Positions 15,137 through 56,792 of a stretch of DNA of 62,954 bases are shown one piece after another. Source of the stretch: a virus. Position 1 is the first letter of the stretch; every line of letters begins with the position of its first letter. The stretch is taken from positions 1 to 62,954 of IMG/VR virus record IMGVR_UViG_3300035703_000093; one strand, written 5' to 3'. The translations under genes were made by a program, and so were the position numbers. The notes beneath the pieces were generated by a model. The model worked only from the letters and a program-made list of their open reading frames with translations. It searched no databases and was not told where the DNA came from.

Positions 15137-15138
15137 GG

Positions 15139-29148: not shown

Positions 29149-32100
29149 TCACAGGCTGGCAGCCTGTCTCACGAGGAGAGGGGCGCGTTGTTTGATGCGC
29201 TGGAACTCCTGAAGGGCGTTTTCGAAGGCGGCGCGGGCCTCGCCGGTGAGGGAGGCGCGGAACATGGATTGAGCGTCTTGAGCTGAAATGCCTTTGCGCT
29301 TGATTCCACCGACTACCATCAAAGGATTGCGGTAGAAGAGGAGCTTGTTGATGTCCTGCTCGGTGCGGACGGGGTGGCCCATTTTTTCGAGTGATCCAAG
29401 GATGTTTTTGATCGCTTTAAGGTTTGGTTCGTCCTGCGCGAGCTGGGCAAAGAGGGCCTTGCGGGCGCGGGAGGCGGGCGTTGTTGAGCCGTAGTCCATG
29501 CCTTCCTGCACTTCTCCTCCTTGGGCGATGATCCAATCGTGGGCTTTGCGGTAGAGGTCCGGGGTGGCGTTCTTGACGTTGAGGCCGACGACGGCGCGGG
29601 TGAAGGCCTGGGCGGGGTCGTAGGTTTCGAGGGTCTTGTTCGTGGCGCGGTCGCCGGCACGCATGAGGGTGTTGAAGGCGGTGCCACCGGGGGCGAGGGG
29701 TGGCAGGGCGACGCCGGCGGCGTGCTTGGTGTAGGCTTTGATCTTCTCGAGCGGCGTCATGCCGAACTCGGCGATGGGGCGGCGGGTGAAGGCGTCCTCG
29801 TTGTGCCTCCAGGCATCGACCAGGGAGAGCACGGGGCCGCCGGAGACGATGCCGCGCCAGAAGCGGTTCCACGGGTCCTCGGTGGCATCGGTGACGGCGA
29901 CGCGGGTGCCGAGGAGATCGGCGAAGGGCATGATGGCGGAGATGTCGAACTGCTGGACGGCCCCTTGGGCGCTGCGGAAGGGCAGCAGCATGGAGAACAG
30001 CGGGGTGTCAAAGGCGAAGAGCTTCCCCTTCCCTGCCATGTCTTTCTGGATTTCCTCCATGTCGTCGTCATCGAGGCCGAGCAGCATGGCGGAGATCGCG
30101 GTCACGATGGCCGGGAAGCTGAGGGCTGCGGTGAGGGCGAGCGGGCGCTCGGCGACGGCGGTGCCGAGGATGCGGGTGGACTCGCGGAAGAAGGAGAAGA
30201 ACGGGTTCACGAAGCGGCCGACGGCGCGGGTGGTGCCGGACTGGCCGAGGCGGTCGTAGTAGGGGAACCATTTCCGCACATGTTCCGCTGCGCGGGTTCT
30301 CTGTTCGCTGTTCTCGGTTCCCTGTTCAGCGAGTTCGGCCTTAGCTTTGAAGTAGGCGGCGGCTTTGAAGAGGTCGTCGGGGAGGCGGCGGAGGCTGGCG
30401 AGGAACTCGTGGGAGCCGTGGAGGGTGGCACCAAAGCCGAAGAGCATGCGCTGGACGAGGCCGGGGTCGTAGTCCTCGATGGTCTTGGGGTCGGGCAGGA
30501 GGCCTTTCAGGCGCTCCTTCACGAGGCCGGTGTAGGCGTCGCCACCGATGACCTGCTGTTCGATGAGTTCGGCGAAGTCTTTGCCCCCGGTGCGGAGGGC
30601 GGCGATGGCCTGCTGGTAGTAGGGCCAGTTGCCGGGGTTCCAGAGGCTGTTGCCGGCGAGGGTGGCGAACATGGTGTTGCCGACGGCGTCGCGGATGTGG
30701 GAGCCGGGGTTCCAGACGAGTTTCCCAGCCTTCCACTTGCGCAGGATGGCGTCGTAGAACTGGAGCGCGGCGTTTGGCACATCGACGAGGTCGAGGATCT
30801 GCGCGGCGATGTCCTTGCGGACGTGCTTGCCGGCGAGAGGGCCGAAGCGGGAGGCGTCGGGAATGGCGGTGAAGCCGTTGAGGGCGATGTCGCTCACCCA
30901 TTCGGGGTGCTGGGCGGTTTTGCGCAGCAGCTCCATGGTGGCGGCGTTGTGGGTCTGGCCGAGGACGTAGCGGGCAACGGCATAGACGGGGTCCTTCACG
31001 AGTTTGGCGGGCTCGAAGGGGTCCTTCGGCAGGAAGCGGTCGTATTGGTGCTTCTTGGCCTGCTTCACGATGCCGGCGAGCATGGGGGAGAGCTTCGCGG
31101 TGTTGGCGATCTGGTCCACGGTGAGGGACTTGATCTGGTCGCGCATCGAGGCGCGTTCGGAGCGCGAGAGCGGGGCGAGCATGTCGGCCACGGTCTTGTC
31201 GCCACGGTCCTGGAGCATGTTCAGCGTCTGCTGGCGCACGAAGTCGTGGTAGAAGGCGTCGCGGGAGGCGGCGTCGCGGAAGCGCCAGCGGTTGCGTTTG
31301 CCGCCCTCGTCGCGGGAGACAGTCACATACTGGCCGGTCTTGTCCTTCCGGGTGGTATCGACGATGTGGTAGGCGGTGGAGCGCTGCTGGAGGAGATCGC
31401 GCACGCCGAGCTTGAACGCGGCGAGGAAGGAGCCGGCGGACTCGCGGGCCTCGTCCTCGGTGTAACGGGGCATCCAGCCGTTCGACTGGAGTTCCTCGAA
31501 GGTGTCCGGGTTCATGAGGCCCTGGCGCACGAGTTCGGAGCCGGTCTGGCGGAGGAGATCGCGCAGGCGCTCCCCGAGGCGCTGCATTTCCGGCGGCAGT
31601 GTGGCCATGGGGACGCGGCCCTCCATGGCATCGAAGAGCTGGGCGCGGGCGGCGGGGTTCTCGGCGAACTCCTTCGGGTAGGCGAGATCGGAGAGGCGGG
31701 GATTGCCGGAGAGGGCGCGGATGAGGTCGTTCGCCGTCTCCTGGCCGTGGGCGGATTTGCGCTGCATCTCGTGGTGCAGGGCGAGCCATTCACGGGGCAG
31801 GAGGGCGGTGGGGAGGACTTGATCGACGAGGCCTTTGATGGACGGGGCGAGGCCGTCCGGCTTGTCGAGCCAGGTTTCGACGGCAGCTTTGGCGCTGCGG
31901 AGCTTGGGGCCGGCGAGCTTGTCGAGCTGGGCGGCGAGGCGTTTGTCGAGGTTGTTCGAGCCGAAGGTGGCGAGGGGTTGCTGGATGCCGAGGGCGTCGG
32001 CAAGGTAGCCGTTCACGCGCAAGGGCACGAGAGGTGCCTGGACGAGGCCTTTGATGACCTTTGAGGCCAGTGCGCCCGTGAGATCGACGGCTTTGCCGGC

Positions 32101-35100
32101 GAGGTCGAGGGACTGGGCGGCACCGGGGACGGTGAGGAGTTTGCGGTCGAGGGCGACGGCTGTTTCGGCGATTTCGCGAGCGTTGGGAGTGGCGGCTCCG
32201 ATGGCGGTGCCGATTGTGCCGCCGATGGCTGCACCGGGGGCTCCTGCGACCAAAGCGCCTGCGCCTGCGCCGATGCCGCCCCCGATGAGGGCACCGCTGG
32301 TGGTGTTTTTGAGGCGGTTGGAGGCGTAGAGAACGCCTGTCAGTCCGTCGGGCAGGCCTTCTCGGCTTCCAATCTGAGAAAGTAAACCCTCAGATTCGCC
32401 TCTTTGAAATGTTTCAAGCGCGGATGCCGTGACGATTGCTCTTTGAAGCGTTGCCAGTCCAATTCCAGATGTGTCGGGATGGGCGTCAAGGACCGCACGC
32501 TCGATTTGCTGCTGCCCCACGGGCTGTCCGGTGCTGTCGATGAACTCGTCACGAGTGAAATCGTAGCGCCAGTTCCGGGCTTCCGCAACCGCCTTGAAAG
32601 CGTTGTCCATCTCCTTGGTCAAAAGCGCGGCGGTGTTGATGGCGGCATTTTTCCCCCACGGCACCTTCTGGCGGTCGTGAGGTTTGAGGTGCTTGGTGGT
32701 GCCGTGGCGCAACGCACTGCTGGCAAAATTCGACGTGCGGCGGATGGCGTTGATGCTGGTAAGCCCGCCCGGATCGTCTTTGATGCGTTTGCCGTTGTTG
32801 TGAATCCAATCCAGCGCTGCCTGGTAAATTTGCGCTCCTCCCCCGCCTTTTTTGCCTTTGGATTCGGCCGCAGTGCTGCGGATGTAGGGGCGGTCAGTGT
32901 CGGCATCATGGATGTCCAAGTAGCCGTTTTTGCCGTGAAAACGCACGGTGTCACCCTGACTCGCGGCCGTGACGAGCTTGCCTGGAATCGACACCGCCTC
33001 AGCGATTTTGCTGGCGCTGGCGTTGCTGGTGCGTCCGTATTGGAATGCCTCATCATGGGCCGCCAGAGCACGCCAGACCTTGGCGACAAACGTGCGGGCC
33101 GGAGCGCGGGCTTCTTCGTCACGCTGATCCAGAATGTCCTGCCACCAAGACGCCGTGCCCATCGGCTGGGCGGGCGTGTTGGGTGGGAACCACTGCGGCA
33201 GCCAGCGGCGGTTGAGTGCGTCCATGTCCTCCTGCTGCTGGCTGGCCTCTTGCTGGAGAAATTCCAGCGCCAGTCGGGATGACTGCTTTTCCATGCGCTC
33301 CTGAACCACCTCGGAAGAATAGATGTCAACATCCGCCCCCAATTTGATCAGCTTGAGGCGTTTTTCCAAGTGTTCACCCCAGCCATTGATCTCGTTGGGT
33401 GTTACGAAAGACAGTAGCTCTAGCGCCCTGTTGAGATACTTTTGGAACTGCTCATCAAGCAGTGTTTGCGGGTAGATGTTTGAGGCGGCTCCTTGGTCAA
33501 TGAGGGCGGCACGGGCGGCTTTTCTTGAATCTAAAACTTCAGCGGCTTTGTTAGCCGTTGGGTGGATGCCATATGAAAGAAGCGACTCATTCGCCAGCCG
33601 CTTCAACTGGTTGTTTTTGTCGATCTTGCTGCGGATTTCCTGAAGTGCTGGCGTTCCGTTGAGGAACCATTGTTGATCCTGCGGTAAATCGTCATGCGTG
33701 CCGCCGTTCCTCTGGAGTTTTTCCAAAAATGTCCGCATGGCAGGCAGCGCCTCCTGCTGGAGCTTGGCACGGCGCTGTTTTTCAGCATCTTGTTCAGCTT
33801 GGAGACTGGCTTGTTTCGCCTGAGCGTCGGACAATGCCGACTCGTTTTTCTTGATGCGCGTCTCGATCTGCCAGCGGGCCGCTTGGCCGGTGTCTCCCAC
33901 GGTTTCACCGCCGCCGTCATACCTGGACCCCAGCACGGGCACGGTGCGGTTTTCGGTGGCAGAACCGATCTGGAAACCCACGATCTCCACCTTGTCACCT
34001 GCGGCTTTTCGCAGATCCTTGATCATGTCCGCCATGTAGCCGGAGCGCGTGTCCGGGCCGTCGCTGAAGTCGATGCCTGGCAGGTTTTCCACCGCCAAAC
34101 CCGTCGCCACATGGCCGGGCTGCTGCGGCTGGGCCAGGAACCGCAGGAGTCCAAGTTCCTCATAGTCGTCATTTTGCGGCGGGCGTGGTGGCAGAGCGCG
34201 GGCGCGGCGACTCCAGAAGTTCAGCAGAGCGGTGCGGGGGTTGGTGTAATTGCTGCTGGTTTGCCGCTCTCCAGCGGAGTTCTCGACCCGAAACTCACCG
34301 CGCTCTGTGCGGCCCATTTTGAAACCTTCGGGTAGATCTGGAAGTTTTTGGTAGGTTACAACAAATTCAGCCGCATTCATCTTGATCCGGTCACCGGCCT
34401 TATTGACCACAATGACCGCATTGATAGGCTCGTTGTGGTTGAGGTAATAGCCGGTGCGACTATGGGGTAGCGAGCGAGTGAGAGCCGCCTTATCGGCAGC
34501 AATGGACTCAATCAGTCCTGACACCTTGCGCTGAACAGAACTGATTTCATCCCGCTGGCTCTGGGATGTGAAGGGGTTTGTCATTGACCACCAATCGGCA
34601 ATTTTGGCAGCCGCGTCAGAATCCAATTGCGGAAGCGCTTCAGTTGGTTTATTATTCCCCGTCGCAGCGACAACATCCTCTGCCAGGGAGGATTCTCCGC
34701 TCCCCTCAATCTGGTTTGGGGAGCGGCCCCGTTGAAGCAATGACATGGGCTGGTTCGCCAACTCACTCTGCGACATCTCCCCGCCCTGGGAAACTGGGGC
34801 GGGGTTTTTTGTGCGTCCGGCGCTGGCAAGCAAAACCGGCTTGTCGTGGGGGCTGGTGGGTTGGGGCAGCGTCTTGGCGAGTTTTTCGATCTGCTCCTTG
34901 GTGACGGGCTGGGTGGTGTCGTGGGTGGTGAGCCAGTGTTTGAAGACGGGGATCGTGGTGGGGATGGCGCTTTGCAGGCCTTTCCAGCCTTTGGTGTAGC
35001 TGGCCATGTAGCCGCGGGCGGCTTCGGCGGGGGTGTTGAAGCCGAGCATGACCTTGTGCTCGTCGAAGTGGCCGTTGCCGGGTTTGCGCTGGTTCACGAT

Positions 35101-38100
35101 CAGCACAAGCTGGGAGTCGGGGTTCGGGCCGAGGAAGAAGTCGAGGTGGCCTTTGTCGCGGCCCACGGTGCCGAGGATGCGGCCGTAGTGATGCGGCAGG
35201 GTGACGGACCAGGGCTTGCCGGTGGCGTCGGTGCCGCTGCGGGTGCTGCCGGCGGGGTTTTCGATGCTGAGGCGCAGGCCGTGGACGTCCACCTTGCCGG
35301 TTTTGTAGTTCTCGGCGTCCTTCTGGGGCTGGGTGGGGTTGGTGTTTGTCGCTGCTGCCGCAGCGGCCACTTGCGTGGCGAGATCGGAGCGGACAGGAGT
35401 GTCCGCGCCCCCTTGGCGGTCGGAGGCGGCGAGAGGGGAGCGCTCGGTGGCGAGGCGTTCAAAGGTGGCGCGGAGGGCTCCGGTGGGGTGGAGGATGATG
35501 TTGTCGAAGACGCGGAGGAATGTGCCGTTGTCCTGGGTGATGGCGTTTTCGGTGTGGAGGTCGAGGACGGCGAGGTTGTCTGCCGGGCGGTAGTAGGCGG
35601 AGGGGGGATCAAGTTGGATGAAGCCTGCGGCTTCCATGGCGGGCTTGATGGCGGTTTCCTGCGCGGCGTATGCGCCCTGGTAGTGCGGCTGGGAGGTGAT
35701 GAGGGCGACGTTGCCGACGCGATCCGCCCAGACGGCGTGGAGGACGATGTCGTCGTGGAAGATGCTGTTGTGGAGCAGCAGCTTTTCGAGGTAGGAGGCG
35801 GCGTCCGCGCCTTCGCGGGCGATGTCCCATTCATCACGGTAGTCGCGGGGCTGGTAGCCGTAGGAGGTGCCGTCTCCACGGGTGATTTTCACCCAGCGGC
35901 CTTCCTGGTCGCGGAAAACGTGGTGTTCAGAGCCGCCTTTGTCGAGGGGACCGTCGAGGTCGTAGCGGGAGGGTGGGTCTGTGATGAGGATGCCGGCGGC
36001 GCGTGCCCAGTCGGTCAGGAGGGCTTTGTCGCGGCGGCGGTCTGCTGCTCTTCGAGCTGCCGCATCCGGCGCAGATGATCCGCCTGTGCGTTGGCTTCGG
36101 CGGAGGTGTGAGAGGAGAGCCGGGAGTTGAGCGCGGCTGCTTCCTGCCTGGTCGGCAGGCGGGGTTTCGGCGATGGGGCGGCGTTTTCCATGGAGGTAGG
36201 CATCTATCGCATGAATGCGGGTTTCTTCCAGTGCTTTAGCTTCGGGCGTGGAGAAAGGTGGCTCGGTGATGCGGGCGCTGGAGGCGAGGGGGACCATCAT
36301 ATCGGTGGACATGATGCCGGAGGCGTTGCGGAGTTTGAAGGGGCCGGCGGCGGCGACGGTGGCGGCGGACTCGGGCGGGGAGAGGAGGACGGCGCCGGTG
36401 TCGTCGCCTTCCTTCACGCCGCGCATGAAGGCGGCGGGGGTGACGGCGGGGTTTTGGGCGTGGAACTGGTTCCACACGGCGCGGATGGGGAGCCACTGCG
36501 AGGACTGGCCGCGCAAGGCGGACTGGTAGGCGCGGGAGATGAGGACCGGGGTGACGGGAATGAGGGCGGTGAGGCCCTGGCCGGTTTGCGGTTCGCGGTT
36601 CGCGGTTCTCTGTTCGCGGTTGCGGAAGAACGCGGCGCTGGAGCCGAGGGTGGTGGGCGTGAGAGCGCGGTCGAGCGGGAAGCGCTGGGAGGCGAAGAGG
36701 GCCTGGCCGGCGAGGGCGGAGTCGCGCATCTGGTGGGTGATGCGGATGAGGTGGATGGGGGTTTCGGAAGCAGGGAGACTTGAAGACGGGGAGACAGGCG
36801 GAGTGGTGGGGTTGTCGAGTTCTTCCTGGAGGCGAATCTGAGCGCGTTGTTGAGACGGGTATTGACCGAAGACGCCGTTGGGGAATTCAATGCCCCACGT
36901 TCCGGGCTGCATTTGGACAACGCCAATTGGGGGGCCTTGGGGCTGGGAGTCGGAGGTGGCACGCTGTTTTGCGGTGATGCTGCTGCTTTCCACGGTGCCG
37001 CCCCAGGGTTTGACGTATTTGGCGAACTCTTTGACGAGGATGTCGTCGTAGAATTTGCGCATGCCCTGGCCGCCGACGCGGAGGTCGAGGCCGGTGTAGT
37101 TTACGACGCGAGAGGGTGAGGCGAATCGGAGGTCGCTGACGATGCGTTCGGCGAGTTCTTTGCCAACGATTTCCGGCAGTTCCTCGGCGGTGAAGGCTTC
37201 CTTGGGCAGCCGCACTTCGTGGTCGTTTTTATCGAGGACGGCGATCTCGTAGCGTGTCTGGTCGAACTTCTTGGCGTCGATGCGTTTGACCTGCTTGCTG
37301 AGGTCGTAGCGGTCGGCCTGGGTGTCGCCGGTGGTCCAGCCGATCCACTGCTTGCCGGACTGGACGGCATCGAGCAGGGCGCGTTTGAAGAGCATCAGGG
37401 GCCAGGAGGCGCGGTAGGGGGCGTCGGGGACTTTGGCTGCTTCTTCGGGCGATGCGGGCACGGTGCCGCCAAACACACCGGGGACCGTCTGCATGGTGTC
37501 CCGGTAACCCTTGTCCCGGCCCATCTGGTGCCATTTGGACTGGAATTCTTCGACGAGGAGGCCGTTGCCGGCGGCATTGGTGCGGTCGGTGGTGCGATAC
37601 CAGGCGAGTGCGTCGAGATCGCCGTAGTGGGTGCGGTCGGTGTCGAGGTTGGGGGAGTTGGTTCTCGGTTCGCTGTTCTCGGTTCGCGGTTGGTTCCAGG
37701 TGATGACGACTTCCTGGGGATTGGTACCGCCGGGGAGGGTCAACTGGGTGTTGCGGGTGGTGGACTGCATGCCGCCGGGGTTCACGCGGTTGTAGCCGTC
37801 GTTCATGTCGGCAACGGTTTCCTGGGCGGAGGCTTCGGTGGGCTCCCAAATGACGAATTCGCCGGCGGGATTGATGACGTCGAAGCCTTGGCCGTTGCGC
37901 TCCGGGCGCAGGGTGGGGCGATAGGTGAAGCGGTCGCTCAGGTTGCCGAAGCGGGTGACGGTGAACTTCACGCTGCCTTCGGTGGCGAGGTAGGCGAGGA
38001 CCTGGTCCTGGGTGATGGGGCCGTCCTGGGCCTGGGACTGGAGCCACTGGCGGATGCCGGTCCATTTCATCTCCTCTTCTTTGAGTCCGGCGTTTTTGAG

Positions 38101-41100: not shown

Positions 41101-44100
41101 CTCCGCCTTGGTCGCAGTGTCGGACTCCATGATTTTCGCATCGAGCTTGAACTGGAAGGCGGCGAGGGAGTCGGCGTCGGGGAAGGAGGCTTCCCGGCTG
41201 GTGCCTTTCTTGGCGAGGGGGATTTTGAAATCGAGTTTTACCTTTTGCGGAGGTGTGTCCCGAGTTTGCACCACGGGCATTCCGTCGGATCGCATTCCTT
41301 GCGGCCATGCAGCCACATTGTCAGTTCCCGTGGGCACTCCGGCGGGGTTTCCGCCTGCATTCTCTGGCGAAAGGCCCGAGCCTGTTGCAGCGTCTGCTGA
41401 ACCGATACCGGGCAGTCCGGCTTGAGAGGCGGGCGCTGGTAAAGCGGTGCTGGCAGATGCGCTATCACGGTTTGAACTCTTAGTAGCAGGCCGGCCGATG
41501 CGCAAGATTTCTTCTGTTCCGGCGTTATTGGTAGAGGGGCTGGTGTTTCCTCCACCAAGAATGGGTTGTTCTCCTCCAGCCATTTTTCGTGAGTCATTTC
41601 GTGAGTCATTGTTTTTATTGGGTAGATTATTTTGGGAAACTGGGGATTCGGCTACGGCAGGCGCAGGCGTGGTGGTGGCGGGCTGGGGGCGGCGGCTGAT
41701 GCGCAGGAGGCGCTCGGCTTCGCTGTGGGGGATGGTTGCGGCGACGTGGGGGTAGGTGAGGGCGAGGTCGTCAAGGGCCTGCTGGCGGATGACGACGCGG
41801 TCGTTGCGCACGTAGGCGGCTCCGGCGGGATCTTCGGCGGTCTGCCATTTGGCGGGCTGGGACTGGACGTAGGCGAGGTCGTCGAGCGCGAGCTGGTGCT
41901 CCAGGCTGCCGGCGAGGGTGAACTCGACGGCGAGGAGGGCGGACTTGAGGCGGGAGAGGGTGTAGATGCGGGCTCCGCCTTCGTCGATGGCGGACTGATC
42001 CACGCCGAGGCCGAGGGCGGCGAGCATGCGCTGCTCGCTGATGCCGATGGTGCGCCAGTCGGCGGCACGGCGGCGCTGGCCGATCTTGCCGGTGCCGAGG
42101 AGCATGAGGAGGGCGGCCTTGGTGGCGTCCTGGCGTCCGGCCTGGCGGGCGAGTTCGAGTTCGCGGGCGGCGTTGTCCTCCAGGAAGAAGCGGGCGCGGT
42201 TCTGGGCCACGACCACGGCGCGGGCGGCGGCGGCACGCTCCTGCTCCTCCAGGCGGTATTTGGCGGTGACGAGGTTGTCGAGCTTGTTGGCCTTGGCGAA
42301 GTCCTCGATCTCGGCGTCGCGGGCGGCGAGCGCTTCCTCAACCTGGGCCATGCGGGCGGTGCGCTGCCGGGCCTGTTGCACCATGGCCTCGACGGCGGCC
42401 TCGTTGATGAAGGCGGGCTTGATCTGGCCGGGGCGCGGGGCCTCGGTGATCTGCAACTTTGGCAGGGTGACGGGCGGCCTATCTTTGACAAGCTCGGAAG
42501 GTAGAGAAGCAAACGCGGCGAGGCGTTTGTTGGTGTTCTCGGTTCGCTGTTCGCTGTTCGCGGTTGTCGGAGGCAGGGACTGGACGAAGCGGGCTCCGGC
42601 GAGGTCGGCGGCGGCTTTAAGCAGGCCGACGTGGAGGGTGGCGAGGGCGGTTTTGGCGGCGTCCGGCTGGGCGGAGAGCAGGCGCTGGAGGTCGGTGCGC
42701 TGGTCCGGGGCCGTGCGGGAGACGAGGCTGGAGACGAGGCGGGTGAGGAGGTTCGCTGTTCGCTGTTGGCTGTTCGCGGTTGGGGCGCGGGGGGCGGAAG
42801 GAAGCGGGCCGCCGGAGGCACGCGAGGGGTTAAAAGAGTTGACTTCGGGCGGAGTGGCTTCACCCTTCGTCGGCGATTGCTGCTGTGCATCTTCAATGGT
42901 GCCAACCGGACCCCTGCCTAGCACGTCCGATTGATTCCGAGCTTCATCTATATCCGGGTTCCCGGTGCGAATAGCACGAGCAGCAATCGCCTTTTCTGTT
43001 TTTGGATCGTTTTCGGCAAGCCACTCAACAGCCTCTATCAGTCCAATAGTGATTTGCACAAAATCTAAGGCGTCATCAACCATCACATAGTGGTCAACTG
43101 GCCTCAGAACTTTTGCGTGATCTCGAACGGAAACTTCCAAATTGCCGCCACGACCAAGGATATACCAAGAACCATGAAATGTTGCTCCAGAATTGCGGTA
43201 GCCAAAAGACAACAGCTTGTCAGATAATTCTCTTTTTAACCTGAATCCAAGCTGGCGAATTTCTTCATCTACCTCGGCTTCTGTCAGGCCAAAACCTGAC
43301 TCAACGGCATCTTTGCGATACTCTCGGCGAATTTCTGCCGACTCATTTTCAAATTCGCTGCGAAAATCATCAATGGCATCAAGGGCTTGCTTGCTTGCCT
43401 CCGCCTCAGTCAGACCGCCCGGCGAAGGCTCATTGTTTTGGGCGGCCCCGGAGTCGGATGCCATGGGGGAATCTGCGCGGTCGGCGCTGCCAAGCAAGGT
43501 GTTTTGGACTTGCCGGCGGGTGAGGTCGCTGGCGGCCATGTCGGCGAGGAGGTGACGCATCAGGGCGTCCTTGGGGGCTTTGTTCCCGGTTCGCTGTTCT
43601 CGGTTCGCGGTTCGCGGTTGGGCGGAGCGCCAGCTTTGGAAGGCGAGGGACTGGAGGGCGGGGGTGAGCAGGTCGAAGAGGCGGGCGAGTGGCTCAGGGG
43701 CGAGGGCGGGGTCGGTCTTGGCGAGGTGCTCGAAGAGCACGCCGGTGCGCATGGCCTGGACGGCGATGGAGCCGGGATCGCGCAGGATGACGGGACGGGC
43801 GGCGGCGTCGGGGTTGGCTGCGGCGGCTGAATCCACCTGCGCGAGGTGGGCGTCGATGGCCTGGGCCATCTGGTCGAGCTGCTGCTTGAACTCGGGCTGC
43901 ATGCGGCCGGCGATCTGGCGCACGAGATCGGCGAGGGCGGCGAGCATGTCCCGCAGCCAGCCGATGAGGCCGGCGGGTGGGTCCACGGCCTCGGTGACGG
44001 CTCCCTGGCGGAAGACGCTCTGGAAATACATGCGCTCATACTCGCGCATGAGGTGGTAGGCCTGGGCGTCAGAGAGCGCGGTCTTCGGCAGGGTGGCGTC

Positions 44101-47100
44101 CTCCTTGCGGCTCTTCTGACGGAACTTGCTGTTGTGGTAGGCGACGTAGATGCTGCGCTGGTCCTCACGGGAGAGGGAGCGCCATTTCGCGATGGTGGCG
44201 GCGCGGCCGAACTGCTCCGGGAACTGCTGCTCAAGGCGAAGCTGGCCGGCGTGGACGTTTTCCTCCTCGTTCGTGGCGGCGAGGGCCTGGGCGGGGCTGC
44301 CGAGGTAGCCGAACTGGGCGAGCATGGCGTCCAGGTCGATGAGGCGGGTGATGCGTCCGTCGATGTTCTCCACGGCGGTCATCTGGCCGCCGAGGCGTTT
44401 CACAGCCACGGGGCCGATGGCGAGGGCGTCGTAGAGTCCGCCGGCGAGCTTCGCGGCGACGTCGTTCTCGAGCAGGTTGAGGAACTGTCGCGCCCAGGCT
44501 TTGCGGGCGTTGAGGGCCTTCTGCCTGGCTTCCTTCTTCGCCTTGTCCTTGGTGCGGGCGATGGAGGGGTCTTTGATGCGCGAGAGGCTGGCAAGGCGGG
44601 CACGGGTCCAGGCGGCGGACTTGCGCAGGGCCTTCGCAGGCGCGGTGCTGCCCTGCGGGATCTCGATGCGGCCGGCGGTGGGGTCGGAGGCGGTGGGTGA
44701 GGGTTTGCCGTTGTTGGCGGTGGTTTGCCGTTGTTTCTTGGCGGCGGCGAGGGGGATGGAGGACTGGGATTTGTCACCGAAGTGGAGGGCGGCGGCGGTG
44801 TTGGCGCGGGTGGGGTTCCAGCCGAGTTTGTTTTCGAGCGCCTGGCGCAGTTCGGTGTGATCTAGAGCGCCGGACTGCTGGGCGACGATGGCGGCGGACT
44901 GCTGCTCGGTCATTTCCTTGGCCTGCACCGCTTTTTTGACGGCGGCAAAGACTTCCTGGGAAGGTTGACCGGGGATGGCGTCGTCGAGGGCGGTTTGGAC
45001 GGCTGGAGGAAGGTTGGAAGCGGGAGCGGAAGCCACGGCAGACGCGGAGGTCTGCCCTCCGGTGGCGGCGGCGGCCTTGGCTTCCATCTCGGCCTTGACC
45101 TTTTCGAGGCGTCCGCCGGGGTTGGCCTTGAGGGGGTTGGTGGCGATGTCCTTGGAATTGAGCGAGCCGGTGATGCCGAGGTCGTCGAGGGCGGCGCGGA
45201 ACTTCGGGCCTTCGGCGATGATCTGCTCGTAGGACAGGCCGTCGAACTCCGGCAGGGCGGTGATCTTCGCGGCGGCGGCCTTGGCATCCGCCTCTGGCAG
45301 ACCGCGTTGGACGAGGTGATTGGCGAGGGTGTCGGCGACAGTGGCGGGGGCTTCGGTCACGGCAGACGCGGATGTCTGCCCTCCTACCTCATTCCCAGGC
45401 TGTGGAGCAGGCTGCCCGCTTGGTGACGGCTGAGTCCCTTGTCCAGCAGGATTTTGAACTGGGCTTTGGTTGGGGCCTGCGACAGCGTCAGGTGCAGCAC
45501 CTTGCGCTGGTCCGGGTTGAGGTTGCTGAGGTCCGGGTTGAGTTTGTCCGGCAGGCTGCTGTCCGGGCTGGGTGGTTTGGGCATAACGGTTGCGGGTTGC
45601 GGTTTCGGTGCCGGGGATGGCGTTGGCGACGGCTTCGAGGCCGTGATCGCGCAGGGCCTGGACGTAGCTGTCCTTGATGACTGGCAGGCCGCCTTTGTCG
45701 ATGTCGAGCACCTTCGGTCCCTGGTAGTCCTTGAGCGGCTTGAAGTCGGTGCCGTCACGGGTCCAGCCAGCGGCGTTGAGGTCGGCCTCGTCCACGTCGA
45801 AGAGTTCACCCCCTTGGGCGAGGTGCAGGGCGAGCGATGCGCGGCGCTGCTGCTGCTCGGTGAGCGCGGCGTCCACCTTGCCAGCGGCGTCGATAGCCTG
45901 GTGGTTGTCGATGGCGGTCCAGGCGGTGGCGACGGTTTCCGGGAGGTTGGCGGGGTTGCGCTCGTTTTCCGGCAGGACGGTGCTGTCCTGGAAGGCGGCG
46001 GCTCCCTGGCCTGCGCCACCGAGGACGGTGGTGGCGACGGCGAGTTCGGGAAGGCCTTTGCCGAGGAAATCGACGAGGGCCTGCTTGGCGGCGGCGTTCT
46101 CCTGGCCGGGCTTGGCGGTGGCGGCAGCGGCGAGCATCTGGGAGATCGCCTCATCCGGGGCTTCCTCGAGGGTTTCCCAGGCTCCGCCTTTGATGAATTC
46201 TTTCCCCACGAGGCCCATCTGTTGCAGGCGGCTGGTGAAGACCTTGGCGGCGAGTTCCTTGGCCTCCTGCGGGCGGGTGAGGAAGCGCTCGATGCCTTTG
46301 GAGCCGAAGGTGAGGGTGAGGAGGCTGGTGGAAAGACCAGACCAGAGCGCGGGCATCTGGGCCTGCTGGAGGGCCTCGGCGTGCGTCATCTCCGGGTGGT
46401 CCTTGCGGAGTTGGGTGTAGATGTCGCCAAGCTGGGCGGCGTAGGTCTGCGCACCTCCGGCGGTGGCGGCCCCGGCCATGCCGGCGCGGCGCAGAGTATC
46501 GACCGCCTTGACCATCTGCGGCATGCTGGCGGATTCCGCCACGGCGGCGGACAGGCTGGGCAGGAAGCGGGCACCGAGCTTGGTGGCAGCGAAGGCGCGG
46601 GTGGCGGACATGGCGACCTTGGCACCGCCGGCGGCGGGCACGAGGGAGCCGGCGAGGCGGGGGAGCTGGTCGAACAGGCCTCGGGTGAGGAAGTTGTCGC
46701 TGGTCTGACCATAGACAGCCTTCTGCTGGCCGAGGGCCTCGGCGCTGTTCGAAGCACGCTGGCTGAGGCCCATGAGTTCTTCGTCGGCGATGCCACGGGT
46801 GACGCGGTTCGAGCCTAGGATGCCCGCACCGAGGGCGGCGGACTGGCCGACGAGGTCGGCGACGGACTGGAGCAGTCCGACGCCAAACTGCTTGGTTTTG
46901 GCGAGCATGGTGCCCAGTGGTCCTTCGGCGGCGGTCTTGTTCTTCTCGACAAACTGCAAGGCCCATTCCTCGGGCGTCACATCTTTGGGGCGTTTGGTTT
47001 CCCAGGCTTTCCAGGTGGCGTCCTCACCGAGCACTTTCTGGTAGTGCTGGATGGTGTCGAGCGTTTGCTTTGCCTGCTGGGCGCGGATCTCGGGATAGCG

Positions 47101-49038
47101 GTCGAGCGCGTCCTGCTTGGCCTCCGGGGAGGCGTTGGAGGCCTGGACAGCTTCCTGGTAATCCTTTTCGGAGGTCAGGCTGGGGTGGACGATGACAGCG
47201 CCGTTGCTGAGGAGGCGGGTTTTGCGGGCGTCCTCGGCCTGGGTCATGTTCTTGCCAGACTTCCACGACTCGGACACGAGGCCCTGGTTCATCTCGTCGG
47301 CGGTGACCTGGTCCCAGTCGAGCGCCTCGGCGTCGGCGAGCAGGCGGCGGGCCTCTGGCTCGGAGAGGCCGGTGGCGTTCATGAGTTTCTGACGGGCGGC
47401 GATAAAGAGATCACCGGCGCTGGCGTGCAGGTCGGGATTGTCGGCGAGCTGCTTCTGGATGTCCGCATAGATCTGCACGGCGGTCTGGATGCGCTGCTGG
47501 CCGGTGGCGATGGAAGCCTGGGCCTTGGCGTCGATGTCCTGCTGGAGGGCCTGCTGGGCGGCCTCGGGGACGCCGTCCGGGTACATCTCGGCGAGGGCCT
47601 GCTGGCGCATCTCGGCATCGCTGCGGAGGGCGTCGAGTTCCTGCGCGGTCTGCTCCATGCCGGGGGTGAACTGGAGGCGGCGGCGGCCGGTGTCGATCTG
47701 CTGCTTCTGCTGGGCCTGCTGGCGGGTCTGGAGGTGTTGGGCGGCTTCGTTCAGGAGCTGGACCTCGCGCTCGTGCTCCTGCTGCTCGATCTGGAGGCGT
47801 GCCCAGTCGTCCTGCTGCATGGCCTGGGTGTCCTGGGCGCGGGCGGTGATCTCCTCGCGCTTCGCGGCGAGGTCCTTCGGCCAGTGCTCGACGGTGCCGT
47901 CCGGCAACTGGTAAACGACCATTTCGCCGGCGGTGAGGCCCTGCTGGCGGCGCTGGGCGGCTTCGGAGTTTAAGGTTTCAAGTTTCAGGTTCCAGGTGTC
48001 AAGCTGGGCGTTGAGCGCGGTGGCTTTCTCCTCGATGGCGGCGCGGCGCTGGTCGAGGTCGGCGGCACTGGCCTCGAGGTCGGCCTTGAGTTCCTCCGGC
48101 GGGAGACGGAGACGGCGCTGGCGCTCGGCTTCGAGCCAGGCGTCGGGGTTGTCGCGCTTGAGTTTGAGATTGTAAATGGCCGCGGCATTCTGGTCGTGCC
48201 ATTGCTGGTTTTCGTCGTCCTTGGCAAGACTGGCGCGGAGATCGCGGATTTTCTGGGCGTGAGGTTTTGTCGCGTCGTTGGCCTCCAGCAACGCCAGATC
48301 CTCGTCGGTGAGTTCTGGATTGGTGGGGTCGAGACTTTGCAGCCGTTGGAGGTGCTGCTGGGCTTTTTGGGCGTCCTCGGTGGGGGATTCGTTCCAAGGA
48401 ATCCAGTCGTTGCCGTTGTTGAGCGCCTTGGCGCGTTCCTGCAACGCGGTTTGGAGACCTGGGAGCGCGTAGTTCTGCGTGATGTTTTTGATTTCCTCGA
48501 CTGTTTTGTCCCGGTCGGTGGATTTCATGCGGCGGCGTGCCGGGTCGCCCATGGTCGCTCCCAAGGCGCGGAGCTTCTCGTCGTAAATCTCGCGGCGCTT
48601 TTTCTGCGCTTCCTGCGCCATGCGGGCGGCGACGTCGGCCTCGGTTTCGTGGGCGATGGGGCTGCCATCGACGGGGTTGAGGCTGTGGCGCACGCCTTTG
48701 CGGGTGAGATCGGCGCGGGCCTGCTTGTTCTTGAGTTCGAGGGCGTCTTTCTCAGCCTTGGCCTGGGCTTCGGCGGCTTTTTCGGCCTGCTTTTGCTCCC
48801 AAAGGGGATCGGGGTGGAGGTTGCCGTCGGCGGTGGTGACGGGGATCATGCCCTGGCGGCGGTATTCCAGCTCTTTCTGGGACAGCTCGGCCTTGCGGGC
48901 CTCCCTGGCCTGGGCTTCGGCCTGTTTGGCGGCGGCCTTGGCGGCCTGGTCCTGCTCGCGCTGGCGCTGGGCGACGAGGCGCTCGGCGTCGGCTTGTTCT
49001 TGCTGGGCGCGGCGGTAGGGGTCGGGTTGAGTGGGCAT
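29149..49038 (-). CDS. giant multidomain polyvalent protein (6,629 residues)
   Basis: One open frame of 19.9 kb, about 730 kDa. In order, with rough residue numbers: 1-620 charged coiled coil; 700-1060 hydrophobic/amphipathic helices; 1150-1215 Pro/Gln linker; about 1590 a zincin-like EEENVHAGQL; 3105-3465 a D12-type DNA-adenine-methylase-like domain (LDAFGG, FVDTSYF); 3610-3700 and 3800-4070 modules typical of phage polyvalent proteins (VEYVEPGFYSAL; EEFQSKWHQ...WIGWTTGDTQADRYDLSKQV); 4350-4520 a kinase-like domain; 4565-4720 an inorganic-pyrophosphatase-like polyvalent module (LHGLRLSIENPAGSTRSGTD, PHHYG); 5575-5620 a glycine zipper; 5650-6620 a conserved C-terminal region with a membrane helix near 6300. 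Such proteins are thought to be packaged and injected with phage DNA. Repeats are inserted in frame at many sites. Confidence 0.85.
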   Translation of the reverse strand: MPTQPDPYRRAQQEQADAERLVAQRQREQDQAAKAAAKQAEAQAREARKAELSQKELEYRRQGMIPVTTADGNLHPDPLWEQKQAEKAAEAQAKAEKDALELKNKQARADLTRKGVRHSLNPVDGSPIAHETEADVAARMAQEAQKKRREIYDEKLRALGATMGDPARRRMKSTDRDKTVEEIKNITQNYALPGLQTALQERAKALNNGNDWIPWNESPTEDAQKAQQHLQRLQSLDPTNPELTDEDLALLEANDATKPHAQKIRDLRASLAKDDENQQWHDQNAAAIYNLKLKRDNPDAWLEAERQRRLRLPPEELKADLEASAADLDQRRAAIEEKATALNAQLDTWNLKLETLNSEAAQRRQQGLTAGEMVVYQLPDGTVEHWPKDLAAKREEITARAQDTQAMQQDDWARLQIEQQEHEREVQLLNEAAQHLQTRQQAQQKQQIDTGRRRLQFTPGMEQTAQELDALRSDAEMRQQALAEMYPDGVPEAAQQALQQDIDAKAQASIATGQQRIQTAVQIYADIQKQLADNPDLHASAGDLFIAARQKLMNATGLSEPEARRLLADAEALDWDQVTADEMNQGLVSESWKSGKNMTQAEDARKTRLLSNGAVIVHPSLTSEKDYQEAVQASNASPEAKQDALDRYPEIRAQQAKQTLDTIQHYQKVLGEDATWKAWETKRPKDVTPEEWALQFVEKNKTAAEGPLGTMLAKTKQFGVGLLQSVADLVGQSAALGAGILGSNRVTRGIADEELMGLSQRASNSAEALGQQKAVYGQTSDNFLTRGLFDQLPRLAGSLVPAAGGAKVAMSATRAFAATKLGARFLPSLSAAVAESASMPQMVKAVDTLRRAGMAGAATAGGAQTYAAQLGDIYTQLRKDHPEMTHAEALQQAQMPALWSGLSTSLLTLTFGSKGIERFLTRPQEAKELAAKVFTSRLQQMGLVGKEFIKGGAWETLEEAPDEAISQMLAAAATAKPGQENAAAKQALVDFLGKGLPELAVATTVLGGAGQGAAAFQDSTVLPENERNPANLPETVATAWTAIDNHQAIDAAGKVDAALTEQQQRRASLALHLAQGGELFDVDEADLNAAGWTRDGTDFKPLKDYQGPKVLDIDKGGLPVIKDSYVQALRDHGLEAVANAIPGTETATRNRYAQTTQPGQQPAGQTQPGPQQPQPGPAQGAAPDAVAGPNQSPVQNPAGQGTQPSPSGQPAPQPGNEVGGQTSASAVTEAPATVADTLANHLVQRGLPEADAKAAAAKITALPEFDGLSYEQIIAEGPKFRAALDDLGITGSLNSKDIATNPLKANPGGRLEKVKAEMEAKAAAATGGQTSASAVASAPASNLPPAVQTALDDAIPGQPSQEVFAAVKKAVQAKEMTEQQSAAIVAQQSGALDHTELRQALENKLGWNPTRANTAAALHFGDKSQSSIPLAAAKKQRQTTANNGKPSPTASDPTAGRIEIPQGSTAPAKALRKSAAWTRARLASLSRIKDPSIARTKDKAKKEARQKALNARKAWARQFLNLLENDVAAKLAGGLYDALAIGPVAVKRLGGQMTAVENIDGRITRLIDLDAMLAQFGYLGSPAQALAATNEEENVHAGQLRLEQQFPEQFGRAATIAKWRSLSREDQRSIYVAYHNSKFRQKSRKEDATLPKTALSDAQAYHLMREYERMYFQSVFRQGAVTEAVDPPAGLIGWLRDMLAALADLVRQIAGRMQPEFKQQLDQMAQAIDAHLAQVDSAAAANPDAAARPVILRDPGSIAVQAMRTGVLFEHLAKTDPALAPEPLARLFDLLTPALQSLAFQSWRSAQPRTANREQRTGNKAPKDALMRHLLADMAASDLTRRQVQNTLLGSADRADSPMASDSGAAQNNEPSPGGLTEAEASKQALDAIDDFRSEFENESAEIRREYRKDAVESGFGLTEAEVDEEIRQLGFRLKRELSDKLLSFGYRNSGATFHGSWYILGRGGNLEVSVRDHAKVLRPVDHYVMVDDALDFVQITIGLIEAVEWLAENDPKTEKAIAARAIRTGNPDIDEARNQSDVLGRGPVGTIEDAQQQSPTKGEATPPEVNSFNPSRASGGPLPSAPRAPTANSQQRTANLLTRLVSSLVSRTAPDQRTDLQRLLSAQPDAAKTALATLHVGLLKAAADLAGARFVQSLPPTTANSEQRTENTNKRLAAFASLPSELVKDRPPVTLPKLQITEAPRPGQIKPAFINEAAVEAMVQQARQRTARMAQVEEALAARDAEIEDFAKANKLDNLVTAKYRLEEQERAAAARAVVVAQNRARFFLEDNAARELELARQAGRQDATKAALLMLLGTGKIGQRRRAADWRTIGISEQRMLAALGLGVDQSAIDEGGARIYTLSRLKSALLAVEFTLAGSLEHQLALDDLAYVQSQPAKWQTAEDPAGAAYVRNDRVVIRQQALDDLALTYPHVAATIPHSEAERLLRISRRPQPATTTPAPAVAESPVSQNNLPNKNNDSRNDSRKMAGGEQPILGGGNTSPSTNNAGTEEILRIGRPATKSSNRDSASASTALPAPASQAGLPGIGSADAATGSGLSPENAGGNPAGVPTGTDNVAAWPQGMRSDGMPVVQTRDTPPQKVKLDFKIPLAKKGTSREASFPDADSLAAFQFKLDAKIMESDTATKAEKQKAQQRGLALIARLMEHTTLTSAEIEEKLKAYHDHLVEEAPKASSFSIFRPVSFRSWAKMPESKSKALPPPVGGDIISELKERFGGIGGPNESSNWDWWRDLTRDAENGPTQSKREAQTAARKGDVSDPARKRAWLLQEGIVNLSEPSSIDEAAGQLSDTEQTTEQDTRIARPWSVSSGQELGLAILDALDARMAAKNTDSVQDIEARDAAEALASAQDFAAYAAGATGQPFTTEELARELEPEDEIQIGSEWFTVQDTDPLTLDSDRFGSVTPQPGQTLNLTAGPNHLRLNNSAGNPARDALDAADDAEVIAALQEAGLLAASPRLRDAASRLVDGAVERHGITAFPQLLAHLVKRLPADAFHALKHPHLRSAWNTVMAERDLPEITPEAAQQALRPYAPHIERRFGEMPPDIARRQAALDEDDMSFPVAVPQGSADTPVRPVSTENSEPGTENKQADFWGTSFDDYRLETLPVPEGSPMTANAIKAIAPYLISGNKGDLLGRHGTFYLSLVEPATVVLDAFGGAAIYTHFLAQQGNLPAGSTWNEWEYSRSITNRQIKDAPAAVVRELISLRSAFDTAFPITDIQPTYEATMEKRRNIHAWINQTLEDYLPTQARDAMGRFPLPDTPRTAALYLFLQNNMAENRVVDFDLDAEGKPRTFTGGKLNGKDDFAFIYWDNPSNSMKHNRPSRVWSADMPALIRDASRRFTEATIRQGDGWQLAADAPAGALVFVDTSYFPTDEQTAAGAAVMNYGNTTLGDANPALWFQKFEKYLLPKGSDVRYVVTNNFNGRVVDQLEKAGWTVLRTFRGSPKKPSHEFIALSPAAVADLRLPSAPVRTYGPGGIPLGDSDGPLQTQSGGAAQNQRGLPAGEPRQTGKRDPQSGLYTPALDATLAGGPGWDRVTSARVAAELDADRRPGDDPLETSPEIDLADLEAQLQEDADRFSSPSVNEDNDVNDVSLSASNRRVEYVEPGFYSALAEAVRAKMPARATPEHILGILKNAGLKEEEMKWTGIRQWLQSQAQDGPITQDQVLAYLATEGSVKFTVTRFGNLSDRFTYRPTLRPERNGQGFDVINPAGEFVIWEPTEASAQETVADMNDGYNRVNPGGMQSTTRNTQLTLPGGTNPQEVVITWNQPRTENSEPRTNSPNLDTDRTHYGDLDALAWYRTTDRTNAAGNGLLVEEFQSKWHQMGRDKGYRDTMQTVPGVFGGTVPASPEEAAKVPDAPYRASWPLMLFKRALLDAVQSGKQWIGWTTGDTQADRYDLSKQVKRIDAKKFDQTRYEIAVLDKNDHEVRLPKEAFTAEELPEIVGKELAERIVSDLRFASPSRVVNYTGLDLRVGGQGMRKFYDDILVKEFAKYVKPWGGTVESSSITAKQRATSDSQPQGPPIGVVQMQPGTWGIEFPNGVFGQYPSQQRAQIRLQEELDNPTTPPVSPSSSLPASETPIHLIRITHQMRDSALAGQALFASQRFPLDRALTPTTLGSSAAFFRNREQRTANREPQTGQGLTALIPVTPVLISRAYQSALRGQSSQWLPIRAVWNQFHAQNPAVTPAAFMRGVKEGDDTGAVLLSPPESAATVAAAGPFKLRNASGIMSTDMMVPLASSARITEPPFSTPEAKALEETRIHAIDAYLHGKRRPIAETPPADQAGSSRAQLPALLSHLRRSQRTGGSSAPDAAARRAADRRRDKALLTDWARAAGILITDPPSRYDLDGPLDKGGSEHHVFRDQEGRWVKITRGDGTSYGYQPRDYRDEWDIAREGADAASYLEKLLLHNSIFHDDIVLHAVWADRVGNVALITSQPHYQGAYAAQETAIKPAMEAAGFIQLDPPSAYYRPADNLAVLDLHTENAITQDNGTFLRVFDNIILHPTGALRATFERLATERSPLAASDRQGGADTPVRSDLATQVAAAAAATNTNPTQPQKDAENYKTGKVDVHGLRLSIENPAGSTRSGTDATGKPWSVTLPHHYGRILGTVGRDKGHLDFFLGPNPDSQLVLIVNQRKPGNGHFDEHKVMLGFNTPAEAARGYMASYTKGWKGLQSAIPTTIPVFKHWLTTHDTTQPVTKEQIEKLAKTLPQPTSPHDKPVLLASAGRTKNPAPVSQGGEMSQSELANQPMSLLQRGRSPNQIEGSGESSLAEDVVAATGNNKPTEALPQLDSDAAAKIADWWSMTNPFTSQSQRDEISSVQRKVSGLIESIAADKAALTRSLPHSRTGYYLNHNEPINAVIVVNKAGDRIKMNAAEFVVTYQKLPDLPEGFKMGRTERGEFRVENSAGERQTSSNYTNPRTALLNFWSRRARALPPRPPQNDDYEELGLLRFLAQPQQPGHVATGLAVENLPGIDFSDGPDTRSGYMADMIKDLRKAAGDKVEIVGFQIGSATENRTVPVLGSRYDGGGETVGDTGQAARWQIETRIKKNESALSDAQAKQASLQAEQDAEKQRRAKLQQEALPAMRTFLEKLQRNGGTHDDLPQDQQWFLNGTPALQEIRSKIDKNNQLKRLANESLLSYGIHPTANKAAEVLDSRKAARAALIDQGAASNIYPQTLLDEQFQKYLNRALELLSFVTPNEINGWGEHLEKRLKLIKLGADVDIYSSEVVQERMEKQSSRLALEFLQQEASQQQEDMDALNRRWLPQWFPPNTPAQPMGTASWWQDILDQRDEEARAPARTFVAKVWRALAAHDEAFQYGRTSNASASKIAEAVSIPGKLVTAASQGDTVRFHGKNGYLDIHDADTDRPYIRSTAAESKGKKGGGGAQIYQAALDWIHNNGKRIKDDPGGLTSINAIRRTSNFASSALRHGTTKHLKPHDRQKVPWGKNAAINTAALLTKEMDNAFKAVAEARNWRYDFTRDEFIDSTGQPVGQQQIERAVLDAHPDTSGIGLATLQRAIVTASALETFQRGESEGLLSQIGSREGLPDGLTGVLYASNRLKNTTSGALIGGGIGAGAGALVAGAPGAAIGGTIGTAIGAATPNAREIAETAVALDRKLLTVPGAAQSLDLAGKAVDLTGALASKVIKGLVQAPLVPLRVNGYLADALGIQQPLATFGSNNLDKRLAAQLDKLAGPKLRSAKAAVETWLDKPDGLAPSIKGLVDQVLPTALLPREWLALHHEMQRKSAHGQETANDLIRALSGNPRLSDLAYPKEFAENPAARAQLFDAMEGRVPMATLPPEMQRLGERLRDLLRQTGSELVRQGLMNPDTFEELQSNGWMPRYTEDEARESAGSFLAAFKLGVRDLLQQRSTAYHIVDTTRKDKTGQYVTVSRDEGGKRNRWRFRDAASRDAFYHDFVRQQTLNMLQDRGDKTVADMLAPLSRSERASMRDQIKSLTVDQIANTAKLSPMLAGIVKQAKKHQYDRFLPKDPFEPAKLVKDPVYAVARYVLGQTHNAATMELLRKTAQHPEWVSDIALNGFTAIPDASRFGPLAGKHVRKDIAAQILDLVDVPNAALQFYDAILRKWKAGKLVWNPGSHIRDAVGNTMFATLAGNSLWNPGNWPYYQQAIAALRTGGKDFAELIEQQVIGGDAYTGLVKERLKGLLPDPKTIEDYDPGLVQRMLFGFGATLHGSHEFLASLRRLPDDLFKAAAYFKAKAELAEQGTENSEQRTRAAEHVRKWFPYYDRLGQSGTTRAVGRFVNPFFSFFRESTRILGTAVAERPLALTAALSFPAIVTAISAMLLGLDDDDMEEIQKDMAGKGKLFAFDTPLFSMLLPFRSAQGAVQQFDISAIMPFADLLGTRVAVTDATEDPWNRFWRGIVSGGPVLSLVDAWRHNEDAFTRRPIAEFGMTPLEKIKAYTKHAAGVALPPLAPGGTAFNTLMRAGDRATNKTLETYDPAQAFTRAVVGLNVKNATPDLYRKAHDWIIAQGGEVQEGMDYGSTTPASRARKALFAQLAQDEPNLKAIKNILGSLEKMGHPVRTEQDINKLLFYRNPLMVVGGIKRKGISAQDAQSMFRASLTGEARAAFENALQEFQRIKQRAPLLVRQAASL

Positions 49039-49747: not shown

Positions 49748-50290
49748 TCATGCTTCGTTGGTGGAGAGGCCGCCGGAGGCCTTGAGGAGGTAGGGCTTCA
49801 CGCTGGCGGGCATGTTGTTGTAGGGAGGGCGGCGGGCGGCGATGAGGCGGTTTTTCTTGATGCGGGTGATGCAGGCCTTGTTGGACTGGTTGCCACCGAG
49901 GACGTGGTAGGCGGTGGCATCTTCGGCGACGTAGAAGCCGACGTGGCCGCCGGTGCCGCGCTCAAACACGAGGACGTCACCCAGCGCTGCGCGGGGGGCT
50001 TTGGTGCCGAATTTGGCCCAGTTGCGAGCCCAGAGCGGATCTTTGACGACGGGTTTGCCGGCGCGGTGGCAGACGATGGCGGCGTAGAGCCCGCACCAGG
50101 GGATGTCGTCGTCGGAGTAGCCGGTGATCTTGACGCCGGCGAGGTTCAGCTCGTCGCGCCAGTCGAGGATGGTCTTATTGCTCCCCTTCCCCACGATCTC
50201 CTGGACGCCGTAGAGGCGCATGGCCTCCTGGAGGGTGCGGGGGAGCTGGCCGAGGGTGGACAGCCAGGCATAGGCGGGCGGTGGGTTCAT
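49748..50290 (-). CDS. TIGR02594-type peptidoglycan peptidase (endolysin)
   Basis: 180 residues from the ATG at 50290. Pattern of the TIGR02594/NlpC-P60-like family: LQEAMRLYGVQEIVGKGSN, then PWCGLYAAIVCHRAG with catalytic Cys66, ALGDVLVFERGTGGHVGFYVAED with catalytic His116, and VLGGNQSNKACITRIKKNRLIAARRP. It probably cleaves peptidoglycan peptides at lysis or entry. No signal peptide, so it needs a holin. Coupled to a 38-residue gene upstream by ATGA. Confidence 0.85.
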   Translation of the reverse strand: MNPPPAYAWLSTLGQLPRTLQEAMRLYGVQEIVGKGSNKTILDWRDELNLAGVKITGYSDDDIPWCGLYAAIVCHRAGKPVVKDPLWARNWAKFGTKAPRAALGDVLVFERGTGGHVGFYVAEDATAYHVLGGNQSNKACITRIKKNRLIAARRPPYNNMPASVKPYLLKASGGLSTNEA

Positions 50291-55993: not shown

Positions 55994-56788
55994 GTGGCGA
56001 AAAAGAAGAGCCAGCAGCCCCCTCAGAGCAACCGCACCGAGCCTGTGCCTGTGAGCACGGTGGCGGTGCCGTCGGCATTGGGCGAGGGCGAGGTGAGGCT
56101 CTACGACCTGCGCAAGAGCAGGCTGCCGGAGGTGGCGGTGCCTCCCCCGGAGATGGAGCTGGCGGAGTGGTCGTTCTGGCTGGTGCATTTCCCCTCCCGC
56201 CGCTGTGCGCCTGTGAAGGGGGACCGTGGCGAGGCGCTGGCTGCCATGAAAAAACTGGGGCGCGGGCAGGATATGGCGGGTGTTTTGCCTGCGAAACCGG
56301 CCAAAATCACGCGTGCGCGTGCGCGTGTGTGTGTGACCGATGAACCCGCCGGGGAGGCTGCGGAAGCCGGACACGGGGAGCCGAAGCCGCCGGCGAACCG
56401 GATGGCCTACACCTCGGTGCCGGAGGGCGCGGACTTTGACCAGGCGATGGCGCATGTGTTTCCGGTGGCGAGGTTGACGCAGCATTTTGAGCGGCTGCTC
56501 ATGGCGGAGGAGGATGTCTTTGACAAGGACGGGAACTGCACGGGGTCGAAGCCGGCCTTCGCGACGCAATTCCAGACGCTCAAGGCGCTGACTGAGTGGC
56601 ACCAGGGGCGTCCTCGGGAGCGCGAGAAGAAGAAGGACACGCGCCCGGTGCTTGGCATCCAGGAACTGCGGCAGAAGCTGCTCATCTCGCCGGAATACCG
56701 GCAGGCCATGCTGGAGATGATCCGTGACTGCGAGGCCCAGGCGGCGGCGATGGCGGGCAGCGGAACCAAACCACCGGCGGGAGGCTGA
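55994..56788 (+). CDS. terS: putative small terminase subunit
   Basis: 264 residues from a GTG at 55994. Located directly before the large terminase (four-base gap), the usual place of TerS. N-terminus low-complexity and basic; central VRLYDLRKSRLPEVAVPPPEMELAEWSFW; C-terminal part helical and charged (GIQELRQKLLISPEYRQAMLEMIRDCEAQAAAMA), similar to TerS oligomerisation regions. No clear DNA-binding HTH visible. Role inferred mostly from position. Confidence 0.55.
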   Translation: MAKKKSQQPPQSNRTEPVPVSTVAVPSALGEGEVRLYDLRKSRLPEVAVPPPEMELAEWSFWLVHFPSRRCAPVKGDRGEALAAMKKLGRGQDMAGVLPAKPAKITRARARVCVTDEPAGEAAEAGHGEPKPPANRMAYTSVPEGADFDQAMAHVFPVARLTQHFERLLMAEEDVFDKDGNCTGSKPAFATQFQTLKALTEWHQGRPREREKKKDTRPVLGIQELRQKLLISPEYRQAMLEMIRDCEAQAAAMAGSGTKPPAGG

Positions 56789-56792
56789 GGCC

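Follow-up and report, generated by a model that had tools for sequence, protein, structure and literature searches.

The giant gene that fills about a third of a 62,954-base IMG/VR virus record (the whole stretch of DNA analyzed, hereafter the window) encodes, judging from its domains, a member of the known class of phage polyvalent proteins (PMC5512222). We propose that this protein combines a chassis with a cargo, that it would be made late, packaged, and ejected, and that the cargo would act early in infection; we assign this reading a probability of roughly 70%. An earlier, sequence-only reading had described an uninterrupted 6,629-residue frame covering a third of the window, and we confirmed a single open frame with one terminal stop (Table 1). 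Its description of a large polyvalent protein with several enzyme-related modules was likewise borne out by Pfam domains, a portal-adjacent position, and a conserved gene order, as for a packaged, injected effector.

Table 1. Features of the giant gene, its surroundings in the window, and the giant ORFs of relatives
Feature	Residues	Position in window	Strand	Remarks
Giant polyvalent ORF		29149..49038	-	6,629 aa, ~721 kDa; ATG start, single terminal stop
Conserved N-terminal tip	1-26	48961..49038	-	MPxxxDPYRxAQQ...; common to G002, G003
Charged, Q/A/E-rich region	27-620	47179..48960	-	Part of conserved N-terminal chassis
Zincin-like domain	1475-1730	43849..44616	-	EExxH 1592-1596 (44251-44265)
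Modules common to window protein, G002, G005	2116-2931	40246..42693	-	
Dam-like domain	3110-3475	38614..39711	-	DTSY at motif IV position (38887-38898)
Module common to other viral contigs	3615-4060	36859..38196	-	GNAT-like part 3810-4020 (36979-37611)
Kinase-PolyVal (PF18762)	4337-4507	35518..36030	-	Pfam 2.4e-9, 37.8 bits, cut-off 27
Polyvalent-type InPase (PF18823)	4572-4703	34930..35325	-	Pfam 3.5e-48, 163 bits
LPD37 (PF18853)	5320-5499	32542..33081	-	Pfam 4e-27
Glycine-rich (zipper-like) stretch	5577-5617	32188..32310	-	Pfam 19.5 bits vs cut-off 28.9
Conserved C-terminal domain	5679-6626	29161..32004	-	Common to all relatives
CHAP/tail-lysozyme-like protein		49748..50290	-	Just upstream of giant gene
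Portal protein (SU10-like)		52535..54724	-	Upstream of giant gene, same strand
Terminase large subunit		56724..58751	+	Divergent to portal
Major head protein		60563..62068	+	
Heptamer arrays in giant gene		30296-30327, 36591-36615, 37661-37685, 39733-39757, 42535-42559, 43582-43613		
Heptamer arrays outside giant gene (n=3)		13798-13822, 19893-20008, 26990-27014		
G002 giant ORF				7,036 aa; G001 is a cut copy with the same matches
G003 giant ORF				6,604 aa
G004 giant ORF				5,605 aa
G005 giant ORF				At least 7,292 aa, cut by contig end
G008 giant ORF				6,920 aa
G009 giant ORF				5,579 aa
G010 giant ORF				4,767 aa
G011 giant ORF				6,058 aa; Verrucomicrobia MAG contig JAFLEI010000060.1

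The other five frames of the same DNA contained 46-244 stops each, with longest open stretches of 137-858 codons. When the giant ORF was compared with those of G002 and G005, second codon positions diverged least in every conserved block (at the C terminus versus G002, differences were 0.31, 0.23, and 0.37 at codon positions 1, 2, and 3), and each relative likewise has a single homologous frame, the shortest being 4,767 aa and the longest at least 7,292 aa; we therefore consider the frame to be protein-coding. Its length, which had been called unusual, is so for a phage, although there is precedent in relatives of more than 7,000 aa and in a polyvalent protein of 12,242 aa encoded on a Streptomyces plasmid, cited by Iyer et al. 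(PMC5512222).

The relatives were identified by scanning with the C-terminal region and with the portal; in related IMG/VR contigs and in one contig of a Verrucomicrobia MAG, homologous giant ORFs lie downstream of a portal gene. Blast coverage of the window protein showed conserved ends (~1-1,150 and 5,679-6,626) and a patchy middle. In the relatives, the middle carries ddrB-ParB, a weak Eco57I-like methylase match, and an SNF2/ResIII helicase (G003); a helicase, an MTase, and InPase (G004); RadC (G005); zeta toxin, ParB, a helicase, RadC, and InPase (G008); LPD37 and InPase (G010); or ParB, zeta toxin, a helicase, and a weak Eco57I-type MTase match (G011). Such modules are typical of anti-restriction proteins, and a fixed chassis with exchangeable cargo appears to be the layout of the family. 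Residues 2116-2931 gave no database match, and no isolate phage in INPHARED showed similarity to the N- and C-terminal parts or to the zincin-like and Dam-like domains.

The C terminus, already flagged as conserved in the sequence-only reading, was 60-62% identical over ~950 aa to the nearest two relatives. It contains the one clear example of the hydrophobic segments that had been claimed (6304-6322), which is conserved in most relatives, whereas those in the N-terminal part were weak. The C-terminal domain matched no Pfam family and no convincing solved structure (a PDB sequence search gave chance matches only), and no PHROG match was better than E = 0.0014 in any of five members; a role as packaging domain is therefore a guess. 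No Pfam family matched the ~1,100-aa N-terminal part. Its conserved tip is, by analogy with P1 DarB, a candidate capsid-targeting signal, and residues 27-620 are probably helical; the claimed coiled coil fits the charged, Q/A/E-rich composition by which it was judged.

Wherever both genes were found on a contig, the portal gene preceded the giant gene on the same strand and the terminase lay on the opposite strand; for G005, the order of portal and giant gene was read across contig ends. Along with the portal and CHAP/tail-lysozyme-like genes, uncharacterized genes lie upstream of the giant gene on its strand, and a 421-aa gene, conserved in some relatives, shares the opposite strand with the terminase and major head protein genes. 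A tRNA-Pro gene (anticodon agg; 55223-55296) is located between the portal and terminase genes. The SU10-type portal suggests a short tail, and the phage is probably temperate since the window also encodes an integrase, an SSB, a replication initiation protein, and a Bro-N/ANT antirepressor. The host probably belongs to the Verrucomicrobia, because G011 comes from a Verrucomicrobia MAG (a binned contig, and as such weak evidence) and because the (pro)phages in which the polyvalent kinase is reported are chiefly those of Verrucomicrobia-Chlamydia and Bacteroidetes (PMC5512222). The same MAG has two homologs of the major head protein, on C9 (109041-110474) and C87 (3442-4914), which are 27% and 40% identical to that of the window; they perhaps derive from a different prophage and from a further piece of the same phage.

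We then considered the modules themselves. InPase, Kinase-PolyVal, and LPD37 all scored above their Pfam cut-offs, in agreement with the polyvalent modules proposed earlier. The kinase-like domain was also upheld at the level of its residues: it keeps K4384, D4493, N4498, and D4512 (the last just past the profile match), and D4493, N4498, and D4512 are found in the G004 and G005 kinases as well. The pyrophosphatase-like module matched the InPase family, but its DxDxxD motif reads DxGxxD (DKGHLD), with the middle Asp replaced by Gly4630 (35149-35151). The lost residue is presumably the equivalent of Asp67 of E. coli pyrophosphatase, an active-site residue. DxDxxD was present in all seven InPase members compared, and the portal-fused polyvalent-type InPase in the solved entry PDB 9b41 has DGDEVD. 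Because the Gly4630 codon is one base away from an Asp codon, the Gly may be a sequencing error or a strain variant. The proposed glycine zipper corresponds to a glycine-rich stretch that falls under the Pfam cut-off. A search of the window for LPD38, of a kind unable to show absence, gave no match, and an NCBIfam scan returned nothing useful.

As for the zincin-like motif, homology and topology suggest a zincin-like domain, but the motif reads EExxH, a motif search found HExxH nowhere in the window protein, and we rejected a canonical active zincin. An AlphaFold2 model of the domain (core pLDDT ~80-95) shows the order of elements described for this fold: one helix followed by three strands and then two helices. 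EExxH is located in the first of the helices that follow the strands, whereas Glu1666 belongs to a later one. By hhalign, it aligned with HExxH domains at the same chain position in G003 (98.7%) and G009 (93.2%), in which the canonical motif occurs at residues 1400 (L022) and 1382 (L041) of the giant ORFs. Both forms thus occur within the family: the first zinc ligand is Glu in the window protein and six relatives, and HExxH is found only in G003 and G009. Since Foldseek gave no significant match to the model, the fold assignment rests on homology and topology; a PDB sequence search with the alignment yielded chance matches only.

For the claimed DNA-adenine-methylase-like domain, a resemblance held at the level of motifs. 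The homologous segment of G005 has GGKSSLL, FFGTGTV, and DPPY, which we take to be motifs of D12-class adenine methylases, and the window protein has NKGDLL, FGGAA, and DTSY; the two regions matched in blastp at 43 bits, versus at most 22 bits for shuffled sequence. However, DTSY stands in place of DPPY, and no methylase profile matched either the window region (Pfam up to E 0.1) or the G005 segment. The structure model of the region was of low confidence, a PDB sequence search gave only weak, unrelated matches for the G005 segment and none for that of the window, and a search for further Dam-like relatives found none. [DNS]PP[YFW] is absent from the whole window protein, which also matched no MTase or helicase profile.

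A further module, at residues 3615-4060, had gone unnamed in the sequence-only reading and occurs in 22 viral loci, mostly outside the giant-protein family. Nearly all among the 50 Foldseek matches listed for residues 3810-4020 were GNATs (E from 0.03, probability up to 0.85; none significant, and from a low-confidence model), which suggests a GNAT-like acetyltransferase module. The module had no Pfam or PHROG match, and a PDB sequence search with the alignment gave chance matches only. GNATs are listed among polyvalent domains by Iyer et al. (PMC5512222).

Overall, the search for enzyme folds by residue range returned the kinase and InPase by Pfam, but no methylase profile and no significant Foldseek match for the zincin. 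Among the enzymes named beforehand, only the kinase keeps its expected residues. The substitutions at canonical catalytic positions may have left the zincin-like, InPase, and Dam-like modules of this phage inactive or altered; the best candidates for active cargo are the kinase and, possibly, the GNAT-like module. The idea of an integrated anti-defense package is partly supported by the enzyme-related modules and by the anti-restriction-type modules of relatives, but it is too strong a description, because three of the four named enzyme sites are altered and a DarB-type methylase-helicase is missing; PADLOC models found nothing.

How might such a protein work? We propose that it would be made late and recruited into the head beside the portal via its conserved N terminus and/or C-terminal domain, that it would be ejected together with the DNA, and that its middle modules would work during the first minutes of infection: protein modification would fall to the kinase and GNAT-like modules, and the remaining modules would have nucleotide- or DNA-directed roles. 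Late expression and ejection are inferred here, as are all the biochemical activities, and packaging is proposed by analogy; packaging in the virion followed by ejection is the most likely fate of the protein. A packaged, ejected effector is the best reading because of the portal-adjacent position, the conserved ends, the exchanged middle, and two precedents: a DarB-like 4,515-aa protein of the podovirus JC1 (gp69, Bcep22-like) was found in purified virions (PMC9144972), and the N-terminal 30 residues of P1 DarB direct a reporter to the capsid (PMC9024508).

The same conserved ends could also belong to a mainly structural protein that forms or fills the ejection conduit of a short-tailed phage, with the enzyme-like modules as degenerate passengers without anti-host activity. 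Short-tailed phages have ejection-conduit proteins (T7 gp14-16; P22 gp7/16/20), and the SU10-type portal, the hydrophobic segment within the C-terminal domain, the better conservation of the ends than of the enzyme modules, and the loss of catalytic residues in three modules are all in line with such a role. Nevertheless, the kinase keeps its active-site residues, the middle of the chain in relatives matches RadC, helicase, zeta toxin, and InPase, and we found no similarity to known ejection proteins; we regard this alternative as unlikely. The substituted sites also allow a delivery chassis whose zincin-, InPase-, and Dam-like modules are mostly non-catalytic and act as binding decoys or inhibitors (they could, for example, hold nucleotide signals or mask DNA), so that catalysis would be left to the kinase and perhaps the GNAT-like module; this we judge unlikely.

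Given that the zincin-like domain comes next after the N-terminal chassis in nearly all relatives, and that P1 DdrB is processed before packaging with zincin-like domains proposed as the agent (PMC5512222), the giant chain might instead be a polyprotein that its own zincin-like domain cuts into separate proteins; the Glu at the first zinc ligand makes canonical peptidase activity unlikely, and the polyprotein very unlikely. An assembly artefact that fused several genes has nothing but the unusual size to recommend it, and we rejected it as having practically no chance, because the same giant architecture, with homologous starts and ends, recurs across independent contigs, which come from different metagenomes and from a MAG.

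The window protein can be compared with several known systems. Published work already covers polyvalent proteins and the injection proposed for them, as well as their InPase, kinase, and zincin-like domains (Iyer et al., 2017; PMC5512222), and the window protein resembles those of phages as a multidomain chain near virion genes with Kinase-PolyVal, InPase, LPD, and zincin-like domains. It differs in being longer than the phage examples compared, in having conserved ends outside any Pfam family, and in its altered zincin, InPase, and Dam-like sites. Like the DarB-like giants of JC1, Atu_ph08, and Mwe-JY07, it is encoded by a single giant gene that lies close to virion genes in a phage of ~60 kb; those of Atu_ph08 and Mwe-JY07 are 4,877 and 4,985 aa, the former downstream of the portal. 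The window InPase is ~50% identical to that of PBC5, Mwe-JY07, and Atu_ph08, and outside InPase we found no similarity to these proteins. Unlike the DarB-like giants, the window protein lacks the DarB-type methylase-helicase, and we rejected its membership in DarB, as there is no fusion of an adenine MTase (NPPY/F) with a SWI2/SNF2 helicase. The link to P1 DarB/DdrB runs through relatives, with ddrB-ParB and helicase modules in G003, G008, and G011 and the weak Eco57I-type MTase match in G003 and G011, whereas the window protein has neither ParB nor MTase-helicase modules. The N4 virion RNA polymerase is also a very large single chain with a zincin-like domain, packaged and injected by a short-tailed phage (PMC5512222); the window protein shares the very large single chain and the zincin-like domain, but no RNA polymerase domain as in N4 was matched in it. 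In the literature, of which our coverage was incomplete, we found no paper describing this giant-protein group. What is new is a family of giant phage versions whose conserved ends are unrecognized, together with the altered active sites and the degree to which cargo is exchanged.

We also observed repeats in and around the giant gene. GAAC-NNN heptamer arrays (GAACCGA/GAACAGA type; ~0 expected by chance) occur six times in frame on its coding strand, where they encode ENSEQRT/ANREPRT-like peptides, and several lie at module boundaries or linkers or in variable loops, where relatives are comparable. Relatives have only a few short GAAC-NNN arrays and none in the giant gene; with the patterns used, the array was not found in the Verrucomicrobia MAG. 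A palindrome, ACAGGCTGGCAGCCTGT, has five copies in the window (17230, 20803, 21397, 28476, and 29152) near gene ends or starts, one of which supplies the last codons of the giant gene (VRQAASL-stop); none was found in the contigs of relatives or, with the patterns used, in the MAG. Further heptamer repeats (GAATGAG, GAATGCG) are mostly intergenic (15073-15137, 17498-17531, 52127-52177, and others).

Taken as a whole, the comparison defines a family of giant phage genes whose products range from 4,767 aa to 7,292 aa or more and combine unrecognized conserved ends with effector modules that are exchanged. Should packaging prove true, the conserved ends would offer a natural vehicle for delivering very large protein cargo, and the middle would be a readable list of what these phages, with hosts probably among the Verrucomicrobia, require during the first minutes of infection.
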